From: Bacillota bacterium
GTDB lineage: Bacteria > Sysuimicrobiota > Sysuimicrobiia > Sysuimicrobiales > Segetimicrobiaceae
DNA: 47,509 bases
Assembly (NCBI GenBank): GCA_021324295.1
Contig: JAJPJJ010000080.1
Span: 1-47,509, forward strand
Direction: 5' to 3'
Both the position numbers and the translations under genes were made by a program. Within the stretch, counting starts at the first letter, position 1, and each line of letters starts with the position of its first letter. The notes under the pieces were generated by a model. It did not search any database. It had not been told where the DNA came from and saw only the letters and a program-made list of their open reading frames with translations. Below are positions 12,253 to 26,380 of the stretch, piece after piece.

Positions 12253-13011
12253 ATGCGCGTCGTCGACCTCAGCCATCCGGTGACGATCCACTCGCCGGGG
12301 TGGGTGGGCTACCCGGGCCTCAGGCTCTGGTACTTCCAGACGCATCAGACACACGGCATCGTCAGCCAGATGATCGAGACCCCGCTGCACCTCAGCACCC
12401 ACCTGGACGCCGAGATGCACGGCGTGTCCGGCGGCCGCGACATCGCCACGGTGCCGCTGGAGCAGTGCGTGGGGCCGGCCGCGATCGCCGACCTGAGCGA
12501 GGTCGGCGAGTGGGGCGTCTACACGCCCGAGCTCGTGCAGCGCAAGGTCGAGGTCCGCCCGCGGGACATCCTCATCATCCACACCGGGTGGCACCGGTAC
12601 TACGCCGGCATGCCGGAGGAAGACCTGGTGACCTACTTCTGCCGGCACCCGGGGCCGGACCACCGTTTCGCGGAGTGGGCCGTGCGCATGCGGTTTCGCT
12701 GGATCGGCGTCGATACCGGATCCGCCGACCACCCGATGAACACGTCGATCCGCGACAAGCGGCCCGACCTGGCACGGGAGTTCGAGCGCCGCACGGGCGC
12801 CCGGGTCGAGGAGCGGTTTCCCGCGGAGCACCTCTTCTGCATGCACCGGGAGCCGTTCCGGCATGGGGTCATCCACGCGGAAAACCTGGGCGGGGAGATC
12901 GCCCAGCTTCTCAACCGCCGCTGCGTCGTCGGCGCGTTCCCGTGGAAGCTCGTCGGCGGGGAGGCGTCGATCTGCCGCATCGTCGCGTTTCCGGATCTCA
13001 CCGCCGATTGA
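12253..13011 (+). CDS. cyclase-family metal-dependent hydrolase (kynurenine formamidase-like)
   Basis: The 252-residue protein belongs to the cyclase family (PF04199), which includes kynurenine formamidase, isatin hydrolase and related metal-dependent amide or lactam hydrolases. The signature is present as 'PLHLSTHLDAEMHG' at residues about 48-61, keeping the His-x3-His-x-Asp-x3-His metal ligands, although the usual Gly before Thr is Ser and the Pro is replaced. AGGAGG lies 6 nt before the ATG. It follows the molybdenum hydroxylase by 27 nt on the same strand, so the two are probably one transcript: ring hydroxylation followed by ring opening is a sensible pairing. The substrate is not established. 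Confidence 0.87.
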   Translation: MRVVDLSHPVTIHSPGWVGYPGLRLWYFQTHQTHGIVSQMIETPLHLSTHLDAEMHGVSGGRDIATVPLEQCVGPAAIADLSEVGEWGVYTPELVQRKVEVRPRDILIIHTGWHRYYAGMPEEDLVTYFCRHPGPDHRFAEWAVRMRFRWIGVDTGSADHPMNTSIRDKRPDLAREFERRTGARVEERFPAEHLFCMHREPFRHGVIHAENLGGEIAQLLNRRCVVGAFPWKLVGGEASICRIVAFPDLTAD

Positions 13012-13044: not shown

Positions 13045-14238
13045 TCACCGCGGAGAGATCACCCAGCGGCCCGCGGCCATCACGAGGAGCGGCGCCGGCC
13101 GGTCGGCCAGCAGGTGGGCATCCCCGGGGAAGGCCACGAGGTCGGCGGCCGCGCCCGGCGCGAGCCCCCAGGGGCCCAGCCCGATCGCCCGCGCGGCCTC
13201 CGTCGAGACCATGTCCAGCAGCGCGGGGACCTCCCGCGGCCCCAGGCGCGCGGCCAGCGCGGCCACCCACGCCGTCTCGAGCATGTTGCCCTGCCCGTAC
13301 GGGTAGTAGACGTCCCGCAGGTTGTCCGAGGCGATCGCAACGGTGACGCCGGCGCGGCGCAGCGAGCGGATCCGCGTGACCCCGCGCCACGTCGGGTCCG
13401 CCGCGTCGGCCTCCTGCAGGAAGAGGTTCGTGGTCGGGCACGCGACGACCGAGATCCCGGCCGCGCGGATCTTCTCGATGATGCGCGAGGCCTCGGGGTC
13501 GCTCACGGCCGAGAGCGCGCAGCAGTGGCTGGCGGTGACCGAATGGGCGGGACGTCTCTCGAGGACGCGGTCCGCCAGGTACTCGACCCATACGCCGGCG
13601 CGGGGCGGCCCCTCGTCGATGTGCAGGTCGAGGGGACGGCCGTGCCGCATCGCTACGTCGAGGAGCACGTCGATGCAGGCCCGCGGGTCGCCGTCCAGGT
13701 TCGGGACGCCGCCCACGACGTCCGCACCCATCGCGACGGCGTCCTCCAGCAGGCGCAGATCCGCGGGGTCGCGAGGGGTCATCGCGGAGGAGGCGTACGC
13801 CACGACCTGCAGCGTGAACCGGCCCGCGTACTCGCGCCGCAGCGCCAGGAGGGATTCGACGGCCGCCAGGCCGACGTACCCGTCGACGTCGGCGTGTGTC
13901 CGCGCGGCGGTCGTCCCGAAGCGCAGCAGGCGGTCCAGCAGGCTCCGGCCTCGCCGGCGGAGCTCCTCGCCGGTGTGGTGCGCCTTCACCGTCTTCCAGT
14001 GGGCGATCGCCTCCCGCAGGGACAGCGCCGGGAGGTCCGGCCTCCACGTCCACGCCTTATCGACGTGCAGGTGCGCCTCGACAAACGCGGGGAGGAGCAG
14101 CGCGCCGTCGAGATCGACGACCTCCCGCCCCCGGGCCTCGAGGGGCCGGCCCACCTCGGCGATCTGGTGGCCCGTGACCGCGACGTCTATTGGTCCGTCG
14201 CGGTCGATCGTCCGGGCGCCGCGGAACAGCACCGCCAT
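13045..14238 (-). CDS. amidohydrolase, cytosine deaminase-like
   Basis: The 397-residue protein is a metal-dependent amidohydrolase close to cytosine deaminase (CodA) and related N-heterocycle deaminases. Visible ligands are 'EAHLHVDKA' (His-x-His on strand 1), 'LHIDEG' (His), 'ASHCCALS' (His) and the Asp in 'ASDNLRDVYYPYGQG'. The C-terminal small beta domain ends in 'AAGRWVISPR'. An upstream in-frame ATG (14253) exists, but I prefer 14238 because GAGG is 7 nt before it and 'MAVLFRGARTID' is the normal family start. It ends 33 nt from the convergent cyclase gene. It lies 82 nt after the dihydropyrimidinase-like gene on the same strand, so it may be the last gene of the long catabolic run. Substrate candidates are cytosine, creatinine or other cyclic amidines. 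Confidence 0.87.
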   Translation of the reverse strand: MAVLFRGARTIDRDGPIDVAVTGHQIAEVGRPLEARGREVVDLDGALLLPAFVEAHLHVDKAWTWRPDLPALSLREAIAHWKTVKAHHTGEELRRRGRSLLDRLLRFGTTAARTHADVDGYVGLAAVESLLALRREYAGRFTLQVVAYASSAMTPRDPADLRLLEDAVAMGADVVGGVPNLDGDPRACIDVLLDVAMRHGRPLDLHIDEGPPRAGVWVEYLADRVLERRPAHSVTASHCCALSAVSDPEASRIIEKIRAAGISVVACPTTNLFLQEADAADPTWRGVTRIRSLRRAGVTVAIASDNLRDVYYPYGQGNMLETAWVAALAARLGPREVPALLDMVSTEAARAIGLGPWGLAPGAAADLVAFPGDAHLLADRPAPLLVMAAGRWVISPR

Positions 14239-14320
14239 GGCGCTGCCTCTCATTGGCTCCCGCCCGGCCGGACTCCTGGCGCGACGGCCCGTGTCCGTTG
14301 GGCCATCCGGGACCCTCGCC

Positions 14321-15667
14321 TCAGTACGATCGCAGGATCCGGCCGGTCGGCGGACCCACGATCTCGCCGTTACGGAACACGACCCGCCCGCCTTTAATCG
14401 TCAGCTTCGGCCATCCGCGGACCGCCATGCCGTGCGCCGGGGTCTTCCACTTCGAGAACGTGGTGCCCGGGCTCACCACGCGCTCCTCGTACATGTCGAC
14501 CAGGACGAGATCGGCATCCTTGCCGACGGCGATGGACCCCTTCCTGTCGTCGATGTGGTAGAGGCGGGCGGGGTTGAGGCAGGCGACCCGGACGAGATCC
14601 TGGAGCGTGAGGCGGCCCTTGTGCACGCCCTCGGAGAGGAGCAGCGGGAGGGCGACCTCGATGCCGGGCATGCCGGCGGTCGCCCGCCAGAGGTTGTCGG
14701 TCTCGTTCTTCTCGCAGGAGATGTGATCGGTGCCCACGGTGGCGATGGCGCCCGAGCGGAGGCCAGCCCACAGCCGCTCGCCGTTGGCGCGGTCGCGTAG
14801 CGGCGGGTTCATCTTGCCGATGGCTCCGATGCGAGGGCCCGCCTCCTCGGGGAACACCGTGAGAAATTGCACCAGCGTCTCAAGGATCAGGGGGCGGCGC
14901 ACCCACTTCCGGGCGGCGTCGATCCCGTCAGCGGCGGCCATGTGCAGCACGATGGCCCGGCAGCCGGTGACCTCGCTGAGGTAGGCCATCGTGTGGATGT
15001 CCGCCACCTCGCAGAAAGCCGGCCGGGCGTCGGTCCAGGCCTGGAGGTCCTGCCTGCCCGAGAGCTGGACGGCAGGCAGAGTATAGCGCACGATCTCCAC
15101 GTCCTCGCAGTGCAGCGCGCAGAGGCCGTCGAACCGCGCGCACTGCTGCATGGTGAGGTAAGCGTCGCCGTCGTCTAGGGGCTCGATGTCCAGTTCGGCG
15201 ACCGCCTTGGCCCGGTAGTCCAGGTGGAGCTTGTAGCACAGGACGCCAAATCGCTCCCGGTACAGCGGGATCTCGTCGATGTGCTGACGATTTTGGATCT
15301 GGAGGTGCACGACCACGTCGCAGTACGATCGCGCCGCTACCACGTGCTCCCACCGCGGGTAGACCTCGAGATAGGAGACTTTGGCCCGGTTGTGGGGCAT
15401 CATCACGGTTGTGCCGCCGGCCACGGCCGAGGCGCTGGTCTGCTCCACGTCGACGTCGAAGGGATAGTGGACACCGAGGTGGATGTGAGGTTCGACGCGA
15501 CCCGGCAGCAGCACGTGTCCGCCGCCGTCGATGGCCTCCTCGGCAGGGGGCGGGTCGCCGTCGCCCACCGCCGCGATCCTCCCCTCCCGCACGGCGACCC
15601 ACCCCCGGAAGGTCGTCTCGGGCGCCACGACCAGGCAATCGCGAATCACAAGATCAGCTCTGGGCAC
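14321..15667 (-). CDS. dihydropyrimidinase/hydantoinase-family amidohydrolase
   Basis: The 448-residue enzyme is of the dihydropyrimidinase, hydantoinase and allantoinase group, which opens cyclic ureides or imides. Metal-site features are 'EPHIHLGVH' (His-x-His), 'VLCYKLHLD' with the Lys expected to be carboxylated, 'ALHCEDVEIV' and 'IVLHMAAADG' for two further His ligands, and 'TVGTDHISCE' for the Asp. The small beta domain closes with 'TIKGGRVVFRNGEIVG'. I chose the GTG at 15667 because GAGGAGG is 5 nt upstream; the longer frame runs antisense-like through the neighbouring gene. It follows an isochorismatase-fold amidase by 38 nt, an arrangement expected for hydantoin-type cleavage followed by removal of the carbamoyl group. 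Confidence 0.9.
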   Translation of the reverse strand: MPRADLVIRDCLVVAPETTFRGWVAVREGRIAAVGDGDPPPAEEAIDGGGHVLLPGRVEPHIHLGVHYPFDVDVEQTSASAVAGGTTVMMPHNRAKVSYLEVYPRWEHVVAARSYCDVVVHLQIQNRQHIDEIPLYRERFGVLCYKLHLDYRAKAVAELDIEPLDDGDAYLTMQQCARFDGLCALHCEDVEIVRYTLPAVQLSGRQDLQAWTDARPAFCEVADIHTMAYLSEVTGCRAIVLHMAAADGIDAARKWVRRPLILETLVQFLTVFPEEAGPRIGAIGKMNPPLRDRANGERLWAGLRSGAIATVGTDHISCEKNETDNLWRATAGMPGIEVALPLLLSEGVHKGRLTLQDLVRVACLNPARLYHIDDRKGSIAVGKDADLVLVDMYEERVVSPGTTFSKWKTPAHGMAVRGWPKLTIKGGRVVFRNGEIVGPPTGRILRSY

Positions 15668-15705: not shown

Positions 15706-16347
15706 TCAGGATCCCTGCCCGGACGTCGAGGCGGCAGCGAGCATCGCCAACACCCGATCCGAGGTGACTACGAGGCCGCAGTACTGGGCCCAGACGGCCA
15801 GCGCGGCCTCGTGCCAGTCGCGCCGGACCCCGGCGATGCAGTCCGATACGATGAGCAGGTCGTAGTCCCGCATGTACGCCTCCCGGACGGTGGTGTCCAC
15901 GCACGCGTTGGTCGTCGATCCCGTGATGATCAACGTGCGACGCCCGAGGATCCGCAACAGCACCTCGAGCCGGGTATTGTAGAACACGCTGAATTTGTGC
16001 TTCTGAATGATGTGGCTTCGATCGTCGATGTACGACTTGAGTTCGGCCACGACCTCGGCGTCCCAGGTGCCCGGCTGGCATGCCAGCCGGGCCCGCTTCC
16101 CCGTATGCGGCTGGATGCGGTGCAACGCGGGCGTCCGGTCGCCGGGCAGGTGATGCTGCACGCTCCAGATGTCAGGGATCCCCCGGGCCTTGCAGGCTTC
16201 GATCACGCGGCGCAGGGGCGGGATGATGGCGGTCAGCGGGGCCATGTCAACGCCGCTGATGCCCAACGTCCCTTCGGGATGGAGGAAGGCGTTCTGGGCG
16301 TCGATGACCAGCAGGGCGGTGTCGCTTACGTCGAGGCTGTAATCCAC
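15706..16347 (-). CDS. isochorismatase-family amidase (N-carbamoylsarcosine amidase-like)
   Basis: The 213-residue cytoplasmic hydrolase keeps the cysteine-hydrolase triad: Asp in 'LLVIDAQNAFL', Lys in 'IQKHKFSVFYNT' and Cys in 'STTNACVDTTVREA'. The last motif with 'TNxCVxxTxREA' is typical of N-carbamoylsarcosine amidase and related carbamoyl or amide hydrolases. The GTG at 16347 is preceded by GGGAGGTGG. The dihydropyrimidinase-like gene follows it. Together they could open a cyclic ureide and then strip ammonia and CO2 from the N-carbamoyl product; this is inferred from families, not shown. A 172-nt gap containing two palindromes separates it from the gene upstream. Confidence 0.88.
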   Translation of the reverse strand: MDYSLDVSDTALLVIDAQNAFLHPEGTLGISGVDMAPLTAIIPPLRRVIEACKARGIPDIWSVQHHLPGDRTPALHRIQPHTGKRARLACQPGTWDAEVVAELKSYIDDRSHIIQKHKFSVFYNTRLEVLLRILGRRTLIITGSTTNACVDTTVREAYMRDYDLLIVSDCIAGVRRDWHEAALAVWAQYCGLVVTSDRVLAMLAAASTSGQGS

Positions 16348-16519: not shown

Positions 16520-17446
16520 TCATCGGTGGACCCACGGCTCCGCGTCACGCGGGGCGGGCGGATCCAGCTCCGCCTCGAGAATCCGGACGATGCCGGACCA
16601 CTGGGCTTGCCCGACCGTCCGCGGCGCCCGGCCCCCGAGACCACGGGCCCACACGGTTCGGACGCCGAACTCCTGCGCGGCGTCCCGGTCGACGGCCCCG
16701 GGCGGCCCCGCGAGGTCGATCAGCAGGGTGTCGCGCCCCAACCGCTGCACGATGTCGCGGGTGAACAGCCGCGCCGGCGCGGTGTTGAAGACGACGGCCA
16801 TGCGAGGGGCATACTCAGCCAGCGCCGAGAGAGGAATGGCCTCGCACCCCATGACCCATGCCCGCGCCCGCTGCACGGGGTTGCGCGCGGCCACGGTCAC
16901 GCGCGCGCCGAGGCCCACCAACGCCGCCGCCACGGTGGGACCGATCTTCCCGAAGCCCACAACCATGCACGGATTGCGGTGCAAAGTCACGTCGGTGTGC
17001 TCGATGGCCAGACGAATAGCCCCTTCGGCGATCGCCGGCGCGCGCAGCAGCATGAGCTCTTCGTCCTGCTCGTACTCTCGGAGCTTGAGGCGGAGCGCCT
17101 CCGCCGCCTCGCGCATCTGGGCGCTCGCGCGGCCGGTGATGAGGATGCCGTTGCGCCGCATGCCCCGCAGCGCCTCGGTATCGGGGACCAGCCTCGCGCC
17201 CGTCAGCGGGGTGAACAGGCTGCCGTCCGCCGCGGGGAGCGGGACCGGACAGATCACGATATCCGCGTTGTCGACGGCATCCGCAATCGTGGCGACGGGA
17301 TACGCGCCCACCGCACGGACCGCGTCGGCCGGCAACCCGCAGGTGCGCACCTCGGCGCCCGCCAAGGCGGCGTGCCGTGCAATTTCGACATCGCGGCCGT
17401 CCCCGCCGAGCACGGCAACGGTGCGGCCGTGAAGGTCGAGGCTCAC
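16520..17446 (-). CDS. dipicolinate synthase subunit A-like NAD(P)-binding protein
   Basis: The 308-residue protein matches the architecture of dipicolinate synthase subunit A (DpaA/SpoVFA). Its N-terminal domain opens with 'VAVLGGDGRDVEIARHAA', followed by 'CPVPLPAADGSLFTP' (residues about 66-80). The second Rossmann domain starts at about residue 161 ('MVVGFGKIGPTVAAAL', then 'VTVAARNP'), and the C-terminal part has 'VVFNTAPARLF' and 'LIDLAGPPGAVD'. The ATG overlaps the stop of the opine-dehydrogenase-like gene by 4 nt. The flavoprotein partner DpaB is absent and no sporulation gene is near, so true dipicolinate synthesis in spores is unlikely. In this setting it may oxidise or reduce an imino or opine-type intermediate. 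Confidence 0.82.
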   Translation of the reverse strand: MSLDLHGRTVAVLGGDGRDVEIARHAALAGAEVRTCGLPADAVRAVGAYPVATIADAVDNADIVICPVPLPAADGSLFTPLTGARLVPDTEALRGMRRNGILITGRASAQMREAAEALRLKLREYEQDEELMLLRAPAIAEGAIRLAIEHTDVTLHRNPCMVVGFGKIGPTVAAALVGLGARVTVAARNPVQRARAWVMGCEAIPLSALAEYAPRMAVVFNTAPARLFTRDIVQRLGRDTLLIDLAGPPGAVDRDAAQEFGVRTVWARGLGGRAPRTVGQAQWSGIVRILEAELDPPAPRDAEPWVHR

Positions 17447-18546
17447 GGAGCAGCCTCCACCAGCGCCCGCACGACCTCGTGGGGAGGAAGGCCGGCAAAC
17501 CCGAGGGCCTCAAGCGTACGCGCCTCGGCTCGGTAGTCCCGCTGCCCGAGCAGGCTGCCGAGCGTCACGACCGCGTCCATGACCGGGGTCGGCACGCCGG
17601 CCGCACGGCCGAGATCCGCAAGGGGCAGAAGCCCGAAGGGGATGTCCTCGTGGAGGTAGCGATGGTCGAGGCTCGGCGGTGCCTTGATGTGGCGGTTCGG
17701 CGCGCTCTCCTGGAGAGCGCGCCGGTGATCGCCGGATGCCGCGGCTTCCCGCGTCGTGGATCCGATGCGCGCGAAGAGGTCGAGGAAGGACGGAACCGAC
17801 ACGTGCCACGCCCGCGCTACCGCCACGCGCTCGGCATCCAGCGCTGCCAGTAACCGCCCGACCGCCGGTGTGGCGGCATCGTAATAGAAGCAGAAGTCGC
17901 CCGCGCTATGCTCGATCCACGCGGCAGCCAGAAGCATCCCGGGGGGATGGAGGATCGCGTTCACGTTGGCAAACCCCGCCGCCAGGACGTGTGCCTGGGG
18001 GTCGAGAGCCGGCAGGAGGTCGCGGACCCGCGCCACCAGACCCGCGGTCGCCCGGCCCGGAAATGCTGCGAAGGGAACGTCGGCCAGCGCGCTCGTCACG
18101 TGGACGCTCCCCGGGTCGGTCTTGCGGCAGATGTACGTCAGGGTTCCGGTCTCCCCGATCGTGATCCCGCCCCGGTAACCGGCGCGGCGGAGGGCCCGGG
18201 AGAACGCCACCGAGCCCAGCAGGCCGCCGGGGTTCAGGACGATGGGCTGCGTCGGCTTCAGGTACGGCGCCATGGCGCTGGCCAGCCCCTCGTGCGCCGA
18301 GGCGGTGGTGCAGACGAGAATCACGTCCGCCTCTCCGATCAGATCGCCGAGACGGGTGCTGCACCTCGCCACCGGCGCAAACCCAGCGTCGAACACGCCG
18401 CTGTAGCGGATACCGCCCTGCTCGGCCACCGGCCGGAGGGGCTCGGCCGAGCGGTTGTACATAGCCACCGTCGCCCCGCGCCTCGCGAGATCCGCTGCGG
18501 CGGCAAACCCTCCGTTTCCGGCTCCGACGACGAGCACTCGTGTCAT
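17443..18546 (-). CDS. octopine/nopaline dehydrogenase-family NAD(P)-dependent enzyme
   Basis: The 367-residue protein has an N-terminal Rossmann domain with 'VLVVGAGNGGFAAAADLARR' at residues 4-23 and a C-terminal octopine-dehydrogenase helical domain (PF02317-like). The conserved 'NVNAILHPPGMLL' near residue 200 contains the catalytic His expected in this family. Family members join or split an amino acid and a 2-oxo acid by reductive amination. Here the context is catabolic: importer, deaminase, peptidase-fold and enolase-superfamily genes precede it. The stop codon overlaps the start of the dipicolinate-synthase-A-like gene (ATGA), so the two NAD(P)-binding proteins are made together. An 8-nt gap separates it from the enolase-superfamily gene. 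Confidence 0.86.
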   Translation of the reverse strand: MTRVLVVGAGNGGFAAAADLARRGATVAMYNRSAEPLRPVAEQGGIRYSGVFDAGFAPVARCSTRLGDLIGEADVILVCTTASAHEGLASAMAPYLKPTQPIVLNPGGLLGSVAFSRALRRAGYRGGITIGETGTLTYICRKTDPGSVHVTSALADVPFAAFPGRATAGLVARVRDLLPALDPQAHVLAAGFANVNAILHPPGMLLAAAWIEHSAGDFCFYYDAATPAVGRLLAALDAERVAVARAWHVSVPSFLDLFARIGSTTREAAASGDHRRALQESAPNRHIKAPPSLDHRYLHEDIPFGLLPLADLGRAAGVPTPVMDAVVTLGSLLGQRDYRAEARTLEALGFAGLPPHEVVRALVEAAP

Positions 18547-18554
18547 GGGGTGAG

Positions 18555-19718
18555 CTATCGCAACCGCTCCCCGTACCGGCTCAGCTTCCGCTCGTCGACC
18601 TCGACGCCGAGCCCAGGGCGATCCGGGACGTGCAGCACGCCGGCCTCGTATCGGAAAGGCGCGCTGACGATGTCATCCTGATAGTAGACGCCCGCGACCG
18701 ACGTGGGGCCTGCCCCGTCCGCATTGGGCACCGGGCAGACGGAAGCCCAGCTCAGCGCCTCGACCGCGACGCCCAGGTGAAGGTTCGCGGCTACGCCGAT
18801 GCCCATCTCGATCGATCCGCCGATATCGCATGTCATGCCGCACGCTCGAACCACGTCCGCGAGCTGCCGGGCCCGGTAGAGCCCACCGGGCTTCGAGTAG
18901 TACAGGCTGATGATGTGTGCCGCCTGCAACTGCCACAGGCGCAGGACGTCCTGGGGAACCCACGCGCTCTCGTCGGCCATCAGGGGAACGGAGACCAGCC
19001 GGGCGACCTCCGCCAGGGGTTCGAACCCCATGACCGGCTGCTCGCAGAACAGGATGCCGTGCGGCTCCATGGCGCGCGTGATCCGCGCCGCTTCCCTCGC
19101 GGACGGGTACGCTTCGTTCGCGTCCACTCGAAGGCCGATCTCCGGCCCGAGGCGCTCCCGCAGCGCGGCCACGAGGGCGATATCGCGCGCGGGGTCGAGG
19201 CCGGTCTTGCACTTGATCGTACGGATGCCCTCGGCGCACGCCGCCTCCGCCTCCTCGAGCGCCTCGCGGGTCCCCATGATCCCCAGCGAGTGGCAGACCG
19301 GGATGCCGTCGCGGAGCTTGCCGCCGAGAAGCCGGTACACCGGGACGCCGGCGGCTTTGCCCGCCATATCATGCAGCGCGAGATCGACGGCTGCCTTGGC
19401 GTACGGATGTCCCTTGATCGCCCGGTCCATGCGCTCGTGGCACTGGACGATCTCCTGGGGGTCCGCATCGGCGAGCGCCGGGACGAGGTACTCGGCGACG
19501 ACATGATCGACCGTTGTCGCCGTCTCGCCGAAGTAGGCACCGTGCGGCCCGCCCCACGTTGCGATGGCGGGCGCCTCCCCCCAACCGTCGATCCCCGCGT
19601 CGCTCAGGAGCCGCACGACGTAGTGGTGGCCGATCGGCGCCGACATCTTGGTGGCCCAGTTATGCGCCCGCCGCGCGGGCAACTGGACGACGTACGCCTG
19701 AAATGCGGTAATCCTCAC
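18555..19718 (-). CDS. mandelate racemase/muconate lactonizing enzyme family protein
   Basis: The 387-residue enzyme belongs to the enolase superfamily, muconate-lactonizing subgroup. The barrel carries 'IKCKTG' (the Lys-x-Lys acid/base pair on strand 2), the metal ligands in 'RVDANEAY', 'CEQPV' and 'ADES', and a second catalytic Lys in 'YYSKPGG'. The N-terminal capping domain is complete. Members abstract a proton alpha to a carboxylate to racemise, epimerise or cycloisomerise acids and N-acyl amino acids. The GTG at 19718 overlaps the stop of the M24-family gene by 4 nt. With the neighbouring opine-dehydrogenase-like gene, an amino-acid derivative is a plausible substrate. Confidence 0.9.
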   Translation of the reverse strand: MRITAFQAYVVQLPARRAHNWATKMSAPIGHHYVVRLLSDAGIDGWGEAPAIATWGGPHGAYFGETATTVDHVVAEYLVPALADADPQEIVQCHERMDRAIKGHPYAKAAVDLALHDMAGKAAGVPVYRLLGGKLRDGIPVCHSLGIMGTREALEEAEAACAEGIRTIKCKTGLDPARDIALVAALRERLGPEIGLRVDANEAYPSAREAARITRAMEPHGILFCEQPVMGFEPLAEVARLVSVPLMADESAWVPQDVLRLWQLQAAHIISLYYSKPGGLYRARQLADVVRACGMTCDIGGSIEMGIGVAANLHLGVAVEALSWASVCPVPNADGAGPTSVAGVYYQDDIVSAPFRYEAGVLHVPDRPGLGVEVDERKLSRYGERLR

Positions 19719-20836
19719 GGCCGCGCTCTGGGCGCCATGCGCCACAACCCCCGCGTATCGAACCGGTCGGTGAGCACGCGGCATCCCGTACCCGTGACGA
19801 CGACGGTGTCTTCCAACTGCATCCCGAGCTGCGGGAAGGTGACCAGCGGCTCGACCGCGAGCACCATCCCCTCCTCGAGTGTCGCATCGGCATAGCGATT
19901 GAGATAGGGCTCCTCGTGCAGGGTCAGGCCGAGCCCGTGGCCGAGGAAGTGCAGCGTCGGCAGCCCCCAAGCGTCCATCTTCTCACTGTAGGCTTGAAAG
20001 ATACCGCGAGTGCTCGCGCCCGGTCGGATCATCTCGAGTGCGAGGTCTCGGCAGTCCACCAGCTTCTGCCAGATCGCCAGGTGCTCCGCCCGTGGCTCGC
20101 CGGCCACGGCCGTCCGCGCCACGTCGCAGACGTAGTTATCCACGATCCCGATCACGTCGATTCGGACGACGTCCCCGTCCGCGATCCCGCGGGGGCCCGC
20201 CGGGGCGTTGAGCATCGGCGTGCGGTCCCCCGCCGTCACGCTCAACATGGTCAACGTCCCGCCGCCCCGCGCCGCAAACGCGTCGGCAACCCGACGGCCC
20301 AGATCGATCTCCGTCATGCCGGGCCACCAAGTGCTGAGGCCCTCGTGGGCCGCTGCCTCCGCGATCCGAGCGGCGCGCTCCAGGCGGGTGATCTCCTGGG
20401 ACACCTTCACCATGCGCAGACGCTGCAGGGTCGCGTCGATGGGGACGAGGCGTGCCGTTCCGTCGAGCGCGCGCTCGAGCCGAAGATAGTCAGCGTGGCT
20501 CAGGTATCCCGCCTCGATCCCCACCGCCCGCATGCCGCGCGCGCGAATTACGTCGGCGAGGACACGCATGGGGTCTTGGGTGAACTCGTTGTATACGTGG
20601 ATCCGGTCGACGTCGGCGTGGACCCGGGCAAACCCCTCCTCGACGTCGACCACGATCATCTCAGCCTCGCCCTCCGCCGGCACCAGGATGATGGCATGCC
20701 GGTGGCGCACCGTCTTCTGTGACGGAATGAACGTGCCGGTCGTCCAGCAGACGTTCTCCGGGGCAATGATGGCCATGCCGTCCAGGTCCAGACGCGCCAT
20801 CGCCTGCCGCTGGCGCCCGCGGATCTCTTCCGGCAT
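19715..20836 (-). CDS. M24-family metallopeptidase/creatinase-fold enzyme
   Basis: The 373-residue protein has the two-domain layout of Xaa-Pro dipeptidase and creatinase. The C-terminal pita-bread domain shows dinuclear metal ligands: two Asp in 'VRIDVIG...VCDVART', His in 'HGLGLTLHEEPYL', Glu in 'AVEPLV' and Glu in 'QLEDTVVV', so it is likely to be an active metalloenzyme rather than a metal-free creatinase. I chose the ATG at 20836 ('MPEEIRGRQR') because GGAGG lies 8 nt upstream; a GTG 13 codons earlier is possible. It lies between an MtaD-like deaminase and an enolase-superfamily enzyme. It could cleave an imido bond in an imported dipeptide- or opine-like compound. Confidence 0.88.
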   Translation of the reverse strand: MPEEIRGRQRQAMARLDLDGMAIIAPENVCWTTGTFIPSQKTVRHRHAIILVPAEGEAEMIVVDVEEGFARVHADVDRIHVYNEFTQDPMRVLADVIRARGMRAVGIEAGYLSHADYLRLERALDGTARLVPIDATLQRLRMVKVSQEITRLERAARIAEAAAHEGLSTWWPGMTEIDLGRRVADAFAARGGGTLTMLSVTAGDRTPMLNAPAGPRGIADGDVVRIDVIGIVDNYVCDVARTAVAGEPRAEHLAIWQKLVDCRDLALEMIRPGASTRGIFQAYSEKMDAWGLPTLHFLGHGLGLTLHEEPYLNRYADATLEEGMVLAVEPLVTFPQLGMQLEDTVVVTGTGCRVLTDRFDTRGLWRMAPRARP

Positions 20837-20876
20837 AGATCGATCCTCCGTCCGCCGCGACCGGCCCCGTGACACG

Positions 20877-22310
20877 TCAGTCGTAGGCCGTTGAGACCAG
20901 CGGGGTGCGGCCGGCGCACACCCCCGACCGGTCGATGACCCGACGGGCGTGCTCGCGTGCCAGCGCGTAGACTTCCCGTTCGTCGACGGTCAACACCCGA
21001 CGGTCACGCATGACGACGCGACCGTCGATCAGCACCGTGTGGACGCAGTGGGCGCCGGCGGAGTAGACGAGCGTCTGGACCGGGTCGGTGTAGGGGACCC
21101 AGTCGCAGTCGTCGAGATTCAGCAGGATCAGGTCGGCCCTCTTCCCCACCTCGATCGACCCGATCTGGTCATCCCAGAGAAGCGCCCGGGCGCCGTCGAT
21201 CGTCGCCATGCGGAGTGCCGTGACCGCGCCGATGAGGGACGCGTCCATGCGGGCGTCCTTGAAGAGTCCGGCGGCGAGGTACATCTGGCGCATCATGTCG
21301 AGCGAGCCCGCCGCGGACGCACCATCGCACCCCAGGGACACCGTGATGCCGGCGGCAAGCATCTCCGGGTACTTGCCGATCCTGGTCGCCCCCTTGGCGA
21401 GCTTCAGCGACGTCCCCGGGCAGAAGGCCACCTTCGTGCCCGCCTCGGCCAAGAAGCCGATCTCCTCGTCGCGCACCGCCACCACGTGGGCCAGCACGAG
21501 GTTGTCCCGCAGGGCGCCCCACTCCTTGAGACGGGTCACCGGCCACTTCCCGGTCTTGCGCTCGCTGACCAGCGCCTCCTCCAGCGACGACGCGATGTGG
21601 TAGGTCGTCCCCACGCCCAACCTCGCCGCGAGGGCCGGCGCGGCGGCGTGCAGCTCCGGGGAACAGGGTTCCTTCCCTTCGATATTCACCCAGACACGGA
21701 TCCGGCCGCCCGCGGCGTTATTGTAGGTGCGCACGGCGCGCTCCAGCTCCGCCAGGGCCGCGTCGGCGTTGGGGAAGAAATGGCGTTCGATCATCTCCGT
21801 CGTCCAGTGCGGCGGGAGTACCTCGGGCAGCCGGTCCGCCGCGTGACGCCCGGTCACCGCTCGGATCCCCACCTCCTCCAGCGCCCGGACCGTGTTCCCG
21901 ACGTCGTTCTGCGCGCCCATATCGAGACAACACGTCGTCCCCGTCTTGATCATCTCGATCCCGGCAAGTAACGTCGCCACGTACTCGTCGTCGGGGCCCA
22001 TCGCCGCGTACACGGGCTTGGCCCAATTGAACACCCACGGCCGGGTGGCCAGCGTATCGGGGAAGACGCCGCGGCTAAGCTGCTCGGAGAGGTGGAGGTG
22101 AGCGTCCACAAACCCGGGCATCACCAGCCGGTTGCGTCCGTCGATGACCTCATCCAGGACGACGCCCCGATACCGGTCCTCGATGACCGCTGTCGGCCCC
22201 AGGGCCGCGATGCGCGTATCCTCGACGAGAACCGAGCACTGGGTGAGCACCCGGTCGGCGGGATCGACCGTCAGGACGACCTCGGCATCCCGGATGAGAA
22301 TGCGCCCCAT
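20877..22310 (-). CDS. amidohydrolase, MtaD/SsnA/TrzA-type deaminase
   Basis: The 477-residue enzyme is of the TRZ/ATZ amidohydrolase group, which includes 5-methylthioadenosine/S-adenosylhomocysteine deaminase, guanine deaminase and s-triazine hydrolases. The site is visible as 'GFVDAHLHLSEQLSRG' (His-x-His), 'YHIASSLEEA' and 'LAHVVAV' (His ligands) and 'LGCDGASAAGSLDM' (Asp). The length is normal. The VOC and tautomerase genes lie immediately upstream, 6 nt away. Enzymes of this group remove amino or chloro substituents from N-heterocycles in the cytoplasm. The exact substrate is unknown; the cluster has no methionine-salvage genes, so methylthioadenosine is not favoured. Confidence 0.88.
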   Translation of the reverse strand: MGRILIRDAEVVLTVDPADRVLTQCSVLVEDTRIAALGPTAVIEDRYRGVVLDEVIDGRNRLVMPGFVDAHLHLSEQLSRGVFPDTLATRPWVFNWAKPVYAAMGPDDEYVATLLAGIEMIKTGTTCCLDMGAQNDVGNTVRALEEVGIRAVTGRHAADRLPEVLPPHWTTEMIERHFFPNADAALAELERAVRTYNNAAGGRIRVWVNIEGKEPCSPELHAAAPALAARLGVGTTYHIASSLEEALVSERKTGKWPVTRLKEWGALRDNLVLAHVVAVRDEEIGFLAEAGTKVAFCPGTSLKLAKGATRIGKYPEMLAAGITVSLGCDGASAAGSLDMMRQMYLAAGLFKDARMDASLIGAVTALRMATIDGARALLWDDQIGSIEVGKRADLILLNLDDCDWVPYTDPVQTLVYSAGAHCVHTVLIDGRVVMRDRRVLTVDEREVYALAREHARRVIDRSGVCAGRTPLVSTAYD

Positions 22311-22316
22311 GCGCGC

Positions 22317-22688
22317 TCACCGATCGTGAAGCTCGATGCGATTACCGTCGGGATCGCGGACGTAGATCGAGGTCCCGTACGTCGGCGTGGTCACAGGCCC
22401 CTCGTAGGGCAGGTTGTCCCGTGCCATCCGCCGCACAAACGGCGCAAGATCCCGGACGCGGAACGCGATGTGGTCTACCGTCCTCTCTCCGGACGCGACA
22501 CCGGGCGGGAACACGGTCAGCCCGAGTCCTTGCCGCAGGACAACGAGGGGGCGGCCGTCCCGCAGCGCCCCGCGGTCGCGGACGGTAAAGCCCAGGACGC
22601 CGACGAAGAACCGCTCCGCGGCGTCCAGGTCCCGAACCTGCACCAAGACGTGGGTGAGCCCCAGGACGGGCGGTTGCTCCGGCGCCAC
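22317..22688 (-). CDS. VOC-superfamily (glyoxalase/dioxygenase-fold) protein
   Basis: This is a 123-residue single-chain VOC protein with two paired beta-alpha-beta modules. Candidate metal ligands are the His in 'GLTHVLVQVRDL', the His in 'VDHIAFRVRDL' and the Glu in 'NRIELHDR'; 'FVGVLGFTVRDRG' is the typical strand-turn before the second strand. It starts with GTG directly after the stop of the tautomerase gene (TGAGTG), so the two are coupled. VOC proteins include glyoxalases, epimerases, extradiol dioxygenases and resistance proteins; no choice can be made here. Confidence 0.86.
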   Translation of the reverse strand: MAPEQPPVLGLTHVLVQVRDLDAAERFFVGVLGFTVRDRGALRDGRPLVVLRQGLGLTVFPPGVASGERTVDHIAFRVRDLAPFVRRMARDNLPYEGPVTTPTYGTSIYVRDPDGNRIELHDR

Positions 22689-22880
22689 TCAGGCCTCCGT
22701 CCCGTCGGACAGCCTGCCGGCGCGGCCCCAGTTCTGCTTCGGGACCTCGTGGATGATCACGTGCAGGTGATCCGGTTTCGCGCCGGCGTGCCGGACCATC
22801 GCCTCCGTGATGGCGGCGACCAGCGCGCGCTTCTGCCGGCGGCTCCGACCTTCCCACATCTCCACGGTGACAACAGGCAC
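22689..22880 (-). CDS. 4-oxalocrotonate tautomerase-family protein
   Basis: The 63-residue protein has the standard length for the tautomerase superfamily. Pro follows the initiator Met ('MPVVTVEMWEGRSRRQK'), giving the catalytic N-terminal proline after Met removal, and an Arg occurs in the expected loop. The core 'LVAAITEAMVRHAGAKPDHL' matches the family helix. The start is GTG with a purine-rich leader. It lies 31 nt after the ATPase gene of the SsuABC-like importer, linking transport to catabolism. It would tautomerise an enol or 2-hydroxy-dienoate intermediate. Confidence 0.88.
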   Translation of the reverse strand: MPVVTVEMWEGRSRRQKRALVAAITEAMVRHAGAKPDHLHVIIHEVPKQNWGRAGRLSDGTEA

Positions 22881-22911: not shown

Positions 22912-23730
22912 TCACCGTCCCCGGCCCGCGATCTCCGGCGTCTTCTCCCAGAGCATTCCGCGCGCCTTGAATAGCTCCCGAATCGTGTGCACGACGTCGT
23001 GAAAGCGACGATCCTCCTTGACGTCGAGGCCCCGCGGCCGGGGGAGCCCGACGTCCACGGCCTCCACGATGCGGCCGGGTCGCGGCGACATGACCACGAC
23101 GCGATCGGCCAGCGCCACGGCCTCTTCGATGGAGTGGGTAACGAAGATCACCGTGCTCCGCTCATGCCACAGGCGCAGCAGATACGCACCCATCTCCTCC
23201 CGGGTGAAGGCATCCAACGCAGCGAATGGCTCGTCCATGAGGAGCAGCGGCGGATCGTGAATGAGGGCGCGGCACAGCGCCACGCGCTGGCGCATCCCGC
23301 CGGAGAGCTCGTACGGATAGCGATCCTCGAACCCGGCCAAGCCCACTTCGTCGAGCAGGTGGAGCGCACGCTCCCGGCTCGCGGGCAGCGACAGCCGCTT
23401 GATCTCTGCCGGGAGCAGGACATTGCCGAGGATCGTCCGCCATTCGAACAGCACGTCGCGCTGAAAGACAATCCCCACGTCGGTGTAGGGTCCGGCCACC
23501 GGCCGGCCGTCGATAGCGATCGCGCCACGCGTGGGCGGGAGGAGGCCGGCGATGAGCATCAGGAGCGTGCTCTTCCCGCATCCGCTCGGCCCGACGACAG
23601 CGAGAAACTCTCCAGATCGAACGGTCATCGTGATGCTCTCCAGCGCCACGATCTGCTGGGCACGCCCGTGGTAGGCCTTGTGCACGTCCTCCACCGCCAC
23701 CGAGACCGTGAGCTGGCGTGGCCCACTCAC
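22912..23730 (-). CDS. ABC transporter ATPase, SsuB/TauB type
   Basis: The 272-residue ATPase carries Walker A 'GPSGCGKST', Q-loop 'FQRDVLFEW', signature 'LSGGMRQR', Walker B 'LLLMDEPFAALD' and H-loop 'VTHSIEEA'. It belongs to the nitrate/sulfonate/taurine/pyrimidine-type importers. The GTG at 23730 overlaps the stop of the permease gene by 4 nt (GTGA) with GAGGG upstream, and I prefer it over the in-frame ATG at 23775. The system is completed by the permease at 23727-24566 and the binding protein at 24553-25548. Confidence 0.92.
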   Translation of the reverse strand: MSGPRQLTVSVAVEDVHKAYHGRAQQIVALESITMTVRSGEFLAVVGPSGCGKSTLLMLIAGLLPPTRGAIAIDGRPVAGPYTDVGIVFQRDVLFEWRTILGNVLLPAEIKRLSLPASRERALHLLDEVGLAGFEDRYPYELSGGMRQRVALCRALIHDPPLLLMDEPFAALDAFTREEMGAYLLRLWHERSTVIFVTHSIEEAVALADRVVVMSPRPGRIVEAVDVGLPRPRGLDVKEDRRFHDVVHTIRELFKARGMLWEKTPEIAGRGR

Positions 23731-24566
23731 ATCGTATCCCTCGCCGCTTCCATCTGCGCCTCGCCGGGCTTCCAACGGATCACGAGGCGCTCGACCAGGC
23801 CTACAAGGTTGAACAGCACGATCCCGAGGAGCGAGAGCACGACGATGACGGCGAACACGAGCGGTGTATCGAGGTTGCTGCTGGCAACCAGTTGGACATA
23901 CCCCAGGCCCGCGTTGGCGCCGATGTACTCGCCGACGACCGACCCGACGACCGCGAGGGCCATCGCCACCTTGAAGCCGCCGAACATGCTGGGCAGCGCC
24001 TTAGGCAGTCGGACCTTGAGGAAGATCTGCCAGGCGCTCGCGCCCAACGACCGGGTGAGGTAGAGCATCTCCGGCTCCACCGATCGCATGCCGATGACCG
24101 TGTTGACGACGATCGGGAAGAACGCGATGAGGAAGGCCACCGCCACCTTGGACAGCAGTCCGTAGCCAAGCCACAGGACGAACAGGGGGGCGAGCGCCGT
24201 CTTGGGCACGGCCTGAAAGGCCACAATCAAGGTGTAGCTCACGCTCTCGAGCATCCTCGAGTAGACAATCCCGATGGCCACCGGGACGCCTATCGCGATG
24301 CTCACCAAGAAGCCTGCGAGGACCTCCTGCGTTGTGTACACGAGGTGCTTGGCGAAGAGCGCCCACCGGCCCAGGAGGATCACCGCGATCTGCGACGGGC
24401 GCGGCAGCGCGTAGGATGGGATCGCCAGTACCCGCGCAAGCAGTTCCCACATAGCCACGAGTGCGACGAGCGCGGCCGCCCCGATCGCCTGCCGCCGCGC
24501 CGCGCGGGCGAGGCCGTGCGCCATCCCCCGCCCCGGTCGCGCGCCGAGCGGCTTACTGACCGACAT
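23727..24566 (-). CDS. ABC transporter permease, SsuC/TauC type
   Basis: The 279-residue membrane protein has about six hydrophobic helices and the EAA-loop region 'RSLGASAWQIFLKVRLPKAL', which contacts the ATPase. It is the channel subunit for the NMT1/THI5-type binding protein. The ATG at 24566 lies inside the end of the binding-protein gene (14-nt overlap, different frame). Its N-terminal 20 residues are Arg/Gly-rich, so an internal start at 'MAHGLARAARR' cannot be excluded. Confidence 0.9.
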   Translation of the reverse strand: MSVSKPLGARPGRGMAHGLARAARRQAIGAAALVALVAMWELLARVLAIPSYALPRPSQIAVILLGRWALFAKHLVYTTQEVLAGFLVSIAIGVPVAIGIVYSRMLESVSYTLIVAFQAVPKTALAPLFVLWLGYGLLSKVAVAFLIAFFPIVVNTVIGMRSVEPEMLYLTRSLGASAWQIFLKVRLPKALPSMFGGFKVAMALAVVGSVVGEYIGANAGLGYVQLVASSNLDTPLVFAVIVVLSLLGIVLFNLVGLVERLVIRWKPGEAQMEAARDTM

Positions 24567-25548
24567 ACCGGTTTGTATAGTACGCCGAGGCCGACTCCAC
24601 GCCTCGCACCAGCCCGCCGCGCGACAGAATCGCGATCGTCCTGCGCCACTCCTCCTCGGAGTTCCACCCCAGCGGGTGACCGGCGGCGGCCTTCGTGTGG
24701 AGCAACTGCAGCATCGAGCTGATCTGCAGCGGTGTTGTCTCGCGATCCAGGGCCTCGGGGAAGAGCTTGATGACCAGGTCGGCTGCCTCCGCCGGATGGC
24801 GCAGCGTATAGTCGAACCCCTCCGTGGTGCCCGCCACGACCGCTCTGACGACCTGCGGGTTCTGCTCGGCGAACTTGCGCGTCGTCACCAACCCATGGCC
24901 GAGGATGTTGAACCCATAGTCGGCGACCCACAGAATGTGAAGAGGTCGCGCGGAGCGCGCGTAGACGATCGGGATCTCGTTGGTGTAGAACGCCGACAGC
25001 ACGTCCACCCGTCCCTGGAGAAACTGTGTGAGCCGCGCGCTGGGGTCGAGGTTGACCATCCGGACCTTGCCGGCATCGACGCCGTTGGCACGCGCGAAGG
25101 CCTCCCAGATGCGCTGGAACGTATCCTGCGGCGACGTGCCGATGCTCTTGCCTTCGAGATCACGTGGCGTCTGCAGTGGCTCGAAGGAGGCCAGGACCAT
25201 GGGGCTCCGATGAATGTAGTTGGCCACCATCAGGATGGGCATCCCCTGTGCGATCCCCTGGGCGGTCTCGATAGCGCCCACGTACGCGAATTGGTCGTTC
25301 CCGTTGGCCAGGGCCGTGAGCGTGGGGCCGGCGCCGGTGCCTTCCAGCACCCGCACCTTCACCCCGTGTCGCTCGTAGAAGCCCTTTTGGACCGCCACGA
25401 ACAGCGGGGCGAACTCACCCTTCGCCTTCCAGCTGAGCCGAATCGTGATGACCTTCTCCGGCTGCGCGCCCGCGGCGTGGTGCAGACCGTCCGCCAGCGC
25501 TGCGGAGACGATGATCCCCACCGCTATGCAGATCCATCGCGCTCGCAT
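24553..25548 (-). CDS. NMT1/THI5-like ABC substrate-binding protein
   Basis: The 331-residue protein is exported by a Sec signal ('MRARWICIAVGIIVSAALAD', ending near 'HHAAGAQ') and has the SsuA/THI5/NMT1 fold ('IRLSWKAKGEFAPLFVAVQK', 'GKSIGTSPQDTFQRIWEAF'). Such proteins bind sulfonates, pyrimidines, ureides or aromatic acids. The ATG at 25548 has an excellent GGAGGGAGGACT leader; the longer upstream frame is not used. Its first 134 nt overlap, in another frame, the end of the GntR gene. It opens the structural part of the long catabolic run, so its ligand is probably the substrate of the downstream enzymes. Confidence 0.9.
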   Translation of the reverse strand: MRARWICIAVGIIVSAALADGLHHAAGAQPEKVITIRLSWKAKGEFAPLFVAVQKGFYERHGVKVRVLEGTGAGPTLTALANGNDQFAYVGAIETAQGIAQGMPILMVANYIHRSPMVLASFEPLQTPRDLEGKSIGTSPQDTFQRIWEAFARANGVDAGKVRMVNLDPSARLTQFLQGRVDVLSAFYTNEIPIVYARSARPLHILWVADYGFNILGHGLVTTRKFAEQNPQVVRAVVAGTTEGFDYTLRHPAEAADLVIKLFPEALDRETTPLQISSMLQLLHTKAAAGHPLGWNSEEEWRRTIAILSRGGLVRGVESASAYYTNRYVGQ

Positions 25549-26380
25549 AGTCCTCCCTCCCCGTCCGGTGGACGGCCTGGACTGCCCGCACCGGCGTCTC
25601 GGGACGCCCATCCTGGTGCGAGGACTCGTCCGGGCGCCCATCCGCCTGCCTCGTCGCCCGGATATCCCGGACCGACGCGATCGTAGATGCAAGATGCCAA
25701 GACATTGCCTCGGCCGCCCGCCCTGGGTCCCCGGAAGAGATTGCGTCGATGATCTGACGGTGCTGGTGGATCGACTGAGCCGCGCGGCCGGGTAGCGCCA
25801 TGACCGCACGGCGGTCGGCGAAGATATGGTTCACCGACCGCGACAGGTACACGAGGTACGGATTACCGGCCAGCTCCGCAACGAGGGAGTGGAACCGGAG
25901 GTCGGCCTGCTCCAGCCCCGCGAGGTTCCCTTCTCGAGCGGCAGCCTCCATAGCGTCGACGCTGTGCCTCAAGGCCTCGAGGCGCGCCGGAAGACCGGCA
26001 TCGTCGGATTTGACGGCCTCCGCCGCCAAGGCTGCCGCCTTGCTCTCCAAGACCTCGCGCACCTCCAGAAGCGCCAGCACGTCGTCGCGGTGGGCTTCCA
26101 GCCAGGGGAGCCAGTAGGCCGGGTCGTCGGGTGCGCCGGCGAGGGGCGCCACGAAGGTACCACGTCCTTGCCGCACATCCACAAGGCGCAGCGTCGACAG
26201 GATCTGAATCGCCTCGCGGATGGTGGCCGTGCTCACGCGCAGGCTGGCCGCAAGCTCCTTCACCGATGGCAGGCGATCTCCGGGACTGAGGCCTCCGTCG
26301 CGGATCAGCTGACGGATCCGCTGGACTACCTGCGCGGCGCTGGTCTGGTGCCGTATGGGCTGGAGGGCCGGAGTAGACAT
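25415..26380 (-). CDS. GntR-family transcriptional regulator, FadR/FCD subgroup
   Basis: The 321-residue open frame has a winged-helix domain at residues about 12-78 ('LSPGDRLPSVKELAASLRVS', 'STATIREAIQIL') and an FCD ligand-binding domain at about 100-242 ('EVREVLESKAAALAA', 'DLRFHSLVAELAGNP', 'HQHRQIIDAI'). The family normally stops near 230-250 residues. Here a Gly/Arg/Asp-rich tail of about 80 residues follows and runs 134 nt into the binding-protein gene in another frame. The tail is probably only lack of a stop codon in GC-rich DNA, or a frameshift. The start ATG (26380) is without a clear ribosome binding site and sits 4 nt from a perfect palindrome. It should control the importer and enzymes that follow. 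Confidence 0.85.
   Translation of the reverse strand: MSTPALQPIRHQTSAAQVVQRIRQLIRDGGLSPGDRLPSVKELAASLRVSTATIREAIQILSTLRLVDVRQGRGTFVAPLAGAPDDPAYWLPWLEAHRDDVLALLEVREVLESKAAALAAEAVKSDDAGLPARLEALRHSVDAMEAAAREGNLAGLEQADLRFHSLVAELAGNPYLVYLSRSVNHIFADRRAVMALPGRAAQSIHQHRQIIDAISSGDPGRAAEAMSWHLASTIASVRDIRATRQADGRPDESSHQDGRPETPVRAVQAVHRTGREDYASAMDLHSGGDHRLRSAGGRSAPRRGRAAGEGHHDSAQLEGEG

Follow-up and report, generated by a model that had tools for sequence, protein, structure and literature searches.

A recurrent bacterial operon pairs an opine dehydrogenase-like gene with a relative of dipicolinate synthase subunit A

Genes encoding an opine dehydrogenase-like protein (ODH) and a relative of dipicolinate synthase subunit A (DpaA-like) form the signature NADP(H) enzyme pair of a catabolic operon that brings known protein families together in a new combination; the operon is genuine, it recurs, and, as far as we have checked, it is undescribed. 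In the window, i.e., the whole 47,509-nucleotide stretch of DNA analyzed here, the operon is a minus-strand run of approximately 14 genes that extends from position 26380 down to 13045 and comprises a regulator, an importer, enzymes, and the pair (Table 1). Several of the genes overlap or nearly abut, and the widest gap, approximately 170 nt, separates the DpaA-like gene from ISO. Both open reading frames of the pair, first recognized from the sequence by the initial annotation, are present on the minus strand where they had been placed. That annotation described them as fused by a four-nucleotide ATGA overlap: the four-nucleotide overlap stands, but the genes are separate, and their junction in the window reads GTGA, formed by a GTG start and a TGA stop. 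ATGA is the usual form of the overlap outside the window. A genome search found a single ODH gene and a single DpaA-like gene in the window genome.

Table 1. Features of the window operon, listed in gene order from position 26380 down to 13045. G032 is a genome of the same order as the window genome, and L020 is one of its loci.
Feature	Position	Strand	Basis
GntR-type regulator, predicted	25415..26380	(-)	GntR-type winged helix at translation start; G032 L020 orthologue 61%
NMT1/THI5-type solute-binding protein	24553..25548	(-)	PF09084 1.7e-40; start by inspection
ABC importer permease	23727..24566	(-)	47% identity to Aminobacter cluster permease
ABC importer ATPase	22912..23730	(-)	54% identity to Aminobacter cluster ATPase; start by inspection
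4-oxalocrotonate tautomerase-like protein (TAUT)	22689..22880	(-)	Pro1 in 42/42
VOC/glyoxalase-fold protein	22317..22688	(-)	PF00903; matches C-terminal part of Aminobacter fusion
AMH, TRZ/ATZ, SAH/5'-deoxyadenosine deaminase-type amidohydrolase	20877..22310	(-)	Metal ligands invariant; 54% identity to Aminobacter orthologue
M24 pita-bread hydrolase	19715..20875	(-)	Metal ligands D,D,H,E,E kept in window
MLE/enolase-superfamily enzyme	18555..19718	(-)	PF13378/PF02746; KxK..D..E..D..K intact; start by inspection
Opine dehydrogenase-like protein (ODH), CENDH-type, 367 aa	17443..18546	(-)	Pfam scan: PF02558 (N-terminal) and PF02317 (Octopine_DH) 1.4e-40, above cut-off; PDB sequence search: closest solved relative 1BG6 (CENDH), 3.1e-61
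Overlap of ODH stop and DpaA-like start, 4 nt, GTGA	17443..17446	(-)
DpaA-like NADP-type oxidoreductase, 308 aa	16520..17446	(-)	PF16924 (DpaA_N) 2.7e-18; PDB 2RIR 2e-33, 3D4O 6.7e-30; 2RIR/3D4O also by fold
ISO, isochorismatase-family cysteine hydrolase, RutB/biuret/carbamoylsarcosine amidase type	15706..16347	(-)	PF00857 3.5e-39
HYD, hydantoinase/allantoinase-type cyclic amidohydrolase	14321..15667	(-)	HxH, K, H, H, D invariant 41/41; start by inspection
CDA, cytosine deaminase-type amidohydrolase	13045..14253	(-)	PF07969; NCBIfam PRK05985/PRK07572

Enzymes of the ODH type act on secondary amines via imines. The active-site residues of N-(1-D-carboxylethyl)-L-norvaline dehydrogenase (CENDH; 1BG6), His202, Arg292, and Asp297, correspond to H200, R296, and D301 of the window ODH and are invariant in 42/42 ODH proteins of the clusters, so that, judged by aligned residues, the opine dehydrogenase active site is kept. 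The GxGxxG motif is likewise retained in the cluster ODHs, and an arginine (Arg32) follows the second β-strand in 41/42 of them. Because CENDH has an acidic residue at this position, Arg32 suggests that the cofactor is NADP rather than NAD.

DpaA is one half of the spore dipicolinate synthase and acts on a ring imine precursor. The predicted model of the DpaA-like protein (pLDDT 89) found 3D4O as its best fold match in the PDB (E 6e-23, TM 0.73–0.83); across 3D4O and 2RIR the TM scores span 0.69 to 0.83. Its nucleotide-binding residues G164, G166, and R188, the last being the NADP-type arginine after the second β-strand, are kept in 46/46 sequences; the loss of the NAD(P) site that had been proposed as a reason to discard the pair was not seen, and the description of both partners as NAD(P)-binding proteins holds. 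Since the fold, the NADP site, and an AP.T.G region are common to this family and true DpaA, the DpaA-like protein might still make or break dipicolinate-like pyridine or tetrahydropyridine dicarboxylates, with the operon degrading such rings, but we consider this very unlikely. The protein misses both NCBIfam DpaA equivalog cut-offs (221.6 versus 261 bits, and 197.9 versus 319.65 bits), and 46 positions conserved among the DpaA-like proteins, including E124, E126, R135, R268, and W283, differ in all three Firmicutes DpaA proteins compared. No match to DpaB (TIGR02852) was found in the window genome by a search that was positive in the B. subtilis control, in agreement with the earlier remark that the pair sits in a catabolic run without DpaB. 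In both of the true DpaA genes that we examined, dpaB is the next gene. By sequence criteria the protein is DpaA-like and not DpaA, because it falls below the curated cut-offs and no DpaB was found, whereas true DpaA precedes dpaB.

To search for the adjacent pair elsewhere, as had been recommended, we scanned GTDB genomes with a DpaA-like alignment as the only seed. This recovered 39 loci, of which 38 are non-clostridial and the other is a clostridial DpaA relative; a scan of the genome contigs with the single DpaA-like sequence had given no match. ODH lies directly upstream of the DpaA-like gene in all 38 non-clostridial loci, and the four-nucleotide overlap is present in 33 of these, or in 38/43 when four plasmids and the window are included. 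The loci, again with the window and plasmids, fall into 17 groups that are less than 85% identical to each other, and the pair is thus not a peculiarity of this contig. The correlation between the distance matrices of ODH and DpaA-like (r = 0.965) ranks with the highest values for the other cluster genes (0.79–0.96). In plasmids, tblastn detected DpaA-like in 18 records and ODH in 286. Fourteen of the 18 DpaA-like records are from Aminobacter, Shinella, and Phyllobacterium, and these 14 also gave the best ODH matches. The fact that most plasmid ODHs have no DpaA-like partner would fit two unrelated oxidoreductases that overlap as chance neighbors. We rejected chance adjacency as extremely improbable, given the identical order in 38/38 loci, the 17 divergent groups, and the correlated divergence; the presence of a single ODH gene and a single DpaA-like gene in the window genome also argues against coincidence.

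The functional unit extends beyond the pair to the importer-plus-hydrolase operon of approximately 14 genes. The operon conserved across the GTDB loci contains the NMT1-type ABC importer, the GntR regulator, MLE, M24, the amidohydrolase/deaminase, the hydantoinase, the carbamoyl hydrolase, VOC, and the 4-oxalocrotonate tautomerase, and the annotated plasmid clusters of Aminobacter, Shinella, and Phyllobacterium repeat the operon gene set. The regulator of the Aminobacter cluster belongs to PF00392/PF07729. Adjacency of ODH and DpaA-like within the operon is strongly favored but is not obligatory, as can be seen in G032, where the DpaA-like protein is 71% identical to that of the window and is accompanied by M24, AMH, HYD, ISO, VOC, tautomerase, and importer genes, whereas MLE and ODH lie together on the same contig approximately 13–14 kb away. 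We had considered whether G032 had lost ODH; its location with MLE rejects this.

Other features of the G032 genome were observed. A gene for a RibD_C-domain reductase (L073:4726-5862), possibly another redox step, is directly upstream of MLE and ODH. On contig C35 a second DpaA-like protein (L021:7198-8100), 40% identical to that of the window, has no detected ODH neighbor; the genes beside it encode an SDR, ABC components, an isochorismatase-family protein, an M24-like protein, and an aminotransferase. Possible extra steps are also found in or beside clusters of other lineages, namely a cytochrome P450 gene in a gammaproteobacterial MAG (L045:362-1714) and an aldehyde dehydrogenase gene in an actinomycete MAG (L060:3517-5001).

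MLE, HYD, AMH, ISO, and the tautomerase all retain their active-site residues. The catalytic and metal-binding residues of MLE are invariant (33/33), and the D-K-C triad of ISO, the feature expected of the carbamoylsarcosine amidase type, was found with D and C in 40/40 and K in 40/41 sequences. ISO and VOC, encoded by separate genes in the window, form one fused protein in Proteobacteria (L022:18116-19105), which provides a Rosetta-stone link between them. An orthologue or analogue of CDA is present in about half of the loci. The M24 metal site is complete (D,D,H,E,E) in the window lineage, but almost all of the other clusters have E,G,H,E,K at these positions, so the M24 step may differ between lineages. 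Comparison of MLE, AMH, ISO, HYD, and M24 with the PDB found no close characterized orthologue and therefore left the substrate without assignment from that source. No homologue of RidA, the CobW GTPase, or RESOL was matched in the window operon; in other clusters, one of these could be an essential step. RESOL (L022:17234-17917 and its orthologues, A4) is annotated as a resolvase in Aminobacter and Phyllobacterium. It has no Pfam match, and its predicted fold gave only a marginal match of the phytanoyl-CoA hydroxylase (PhyH) type (CytC3, E 1.2e-3); the name looks wrong.

Two of the loci, from a Bauldia MAG (L056) and a Hyphomicrobiales MAG (L059), divide the gene set. AMH, HYD, and the hydrolase domain of ISO are jointly absent from both, whereas MLE, M24, ODH, DpaA-like, and the tautomerase are kept, and of the ISO-VOC protein only the VOC part persists. 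Searches of the two genomes, both MAGs from which contigs may be missing, found nothing close to HYD (best 35%) or AMH (30% or none) elsewhere. Because AMH, HYD, and ISO vanish together while the remainder stays, the gene content suggests a pathway of two modules, one that would remove a ureide or guanidine group (AMH, HYD, and ISO) and a core that contains the pair.

Genes beside the operon were also noted. Convergent with it in the window, on the plus strand, are genes for a molybdenum hydroxylase large subunit-like protein (9889-12225) and a PF04199 cyclase (12253-13011), and L054 and L059 have relatives of the former close to the cluster. Upstream, the minus-strand genes between 28917 and 38438 are likewise of kinds associated with transport and hydrolysis; they encode a permease, two solute-binding proteins from different families, a deacylase of the AstE/AspA type, and an FAD-binding_2 oxidoreductase.

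We propose, with a confidence that we put midway between doubt and acceptance, that the operon encodes an undescribed catabolic pathway in which an imported amino acid derivative bearing a cyclic guanidine or ureide is degraded and ODH and DpaA-like act in succession, with NADP(H), on an amine or imine. The substrate would be an amino acid-like molecule with a cyclic guanidine or cyclic ureide, which is the most economical guess because a deaminase, a ring-opening amidohydrolase, and a carbamoyl hydrolase match the logic of the creatinine route, which runs through N-methylhydantoin and N-carbamoylsarcosine (PMC8864220). AMH, sometimes with CDA, would deaminate the cyclic guanidine, HYD would open the resulting cyclic urea, and ISO would strip off the carbamoyl group, giving CO2 and NH3, so that an amine remains. 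MLE may set the stereochemistry or the isomer, and M24 may hydrolyze a C-N bond. ODH would then oxidize a secondary amine to an imine, freeing an amino acid along with a 2-oxo acid that may be glyoxylate, and DpaA-like would oxidize or reduce a neighboring, probably cyclic, imine, while the tautomerase and, where present, RidA would handle enamine and imine intermediates. In many Hyphomicrobiales loci, genes for a D-amino acid dehydrogenase and malate synthase G are located just before ODH, and this suggests that glyoxylate is among the products. NAD(P) transhydrogenase genes adjoin several of the plasmid clusters.

Several considerations count against the proposed pathway: the hydantoinase, TRZ/ATZ deaminase, MLE, and M24 families are broad and change substrate easily; tight coupling of ODH to DpaA-like is not essential, given the distance between them in G032; and the lineage differences in the M24 metal site and the lack of a RidA, CobW, or RESOL match in the window operon, both described above, weigh in the same direction. 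A narrower form of the proposal, which we advance only tentatively and hold to be considerably less probable than the general one, is that the two enzymes constitute a dedicated NADP/NADPH-recycling module on a shared imine, one oxidizing and the other reducing, at the core of a widespread undescribed pathway for N-substituted amino acids bearing a cyclic guanidine or ureide, e.g., 2-iminoimidazolidinone or glycation-type compounds.

An alternative scheme would confine the operon to nitrogen scavenging of the creatinine/hydantoin type from a small ureide, with ODH and DpaA-like processing only the N-substituted amino acid released, e.g., a sarcosine-like amine. AMH/CDA, HYD, and ISO correspond in role to the deaminase, the hydantoinase, and the carbamoylsarcosine amidase, and the loss of metal ligands from most M24 orthologues (E,G,H,E,K) is reminiscent of creatinase, a member of the M24 fold that has no metal. 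We nevertheless think this scheme unlikely, since L056 and L059 keep ODH, DpaA-like, MLE, and M24 without AMH, HYD, or ISO, which argues for a second module independent of ureide chemistry; in addition, the annotation of the plasmid clusters includes neither a sarcosine oxidase or dehydrogenase nor an ATP-dependent HyuAB hydantoinase.

NADP-type sites could equally well serve reduction, a further point against the proposed pathway. In a biosynthetic role, ODH would join an amine to a 2-oxo acid with NADPH to give an opine-type metallophore, and DpaA-like would make a ring. The NADP-type sites of both proteins are compatible with such a role, a CobW/ZigA-type GTPase occurs in many clusters, and bacteria are known to carry clusters for opine-type zincophores (PMC7438024). 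However, the plasmid clusters have no annotated nicotianamine synthase-like gene or exporter, hydrolases and an NMT1-type importer dominate the operon, and the window operon has no CobW match, and we regard metallophore synthesis as improbable, to about the same degree as a role in dipicolinate-type ring chemistry. The gene content supports the initial view of a catabolic setting.

The operon places a clear DpaA relative in bacteria without DpaB and gives it an opine dehydrogenase as fixed partner. Its hosts are widely separated, and include the window lineage, Alpha-, Beta-, and Gammaproteobacteria, and an actinomycete MAG. A complete gene set from importer to product is carried by culturable strains (Aminobacter, Shinella, and Variovorax), and the substrate should be findable by growth and knockout tests. 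Two annotations would be corrected: "dipicolinate synthase" for the DpaA-like proteins and "resolvase" for the RESOL gene. The open-access literature that we searched does not describe the pair or the operon, which is in line with the earlier statement that no described pathway uses this pair; this novelty is provisional because subscription papers and preprints were largely outside the search. Two reports were considered and set aside: we found no link to metformin degradation in Aminobacter in PMC9699525, and no sign of DpaA-like or hydrolase genes with the serpentine opine dehydrogenase of Mesorhizobium (PMC5315480).

Among known systems, the Rut and biuret pathways (RutB and BiuH) share with the operon the ISO-type hydrolase: ISO is closest to the biuret hydrolases and RutB in the PDB and NCBIfam, and the Aminobacter orthologue is closest in the PDB to the biuret hydrolase-type cysteine hydrolases and RutB. 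ISO falls well short of the cut-offs for RutB and BiuH, and the annotation of the plasmid clusters lists no further genes of the Rut or cyanuric acid pathways. The creatinine pathway resembles the operon in its deaminase, its hydantoin-opening enzyme, its isochorismatase-family carbamoyl hydrolase, and the creatinase fold of M24. In contrast to the ATP-dependent HyuAB of that pathway, HYD is a metal-dependent cyclic amidohydrolase, and the operon adds MLE, ODH, DpaA-like, the tautomerase, and the VOC protein. CENDH of Arthrobacter 1C is identical to ODH at 129 of 352 aligned columns (37%) and shares with it PF02317 and the His202, Arg292, and Asp297 positions; the two differ in the residue after the second β-strand, which is Arg32 in ODH and acidic in CENDH, and ODH sits in a multi-enzyme operon with its DpaA-like partner. 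DpaA/SpoVFA (TIGR02853 and PRK08306; 2RIR and 3D4O) is similar to the DpaA-like protein over its full length with 26–30% identity, and has the same fold, DpaA_N domain, GxGxxG motif, and NADP-type arginine, whereas the DpaA-like protein, with its private conserved residues and sub-threshold equivalog scores, is encoded outside any sporulation or lysine locus and is partnered by ODH instead of DpaB.
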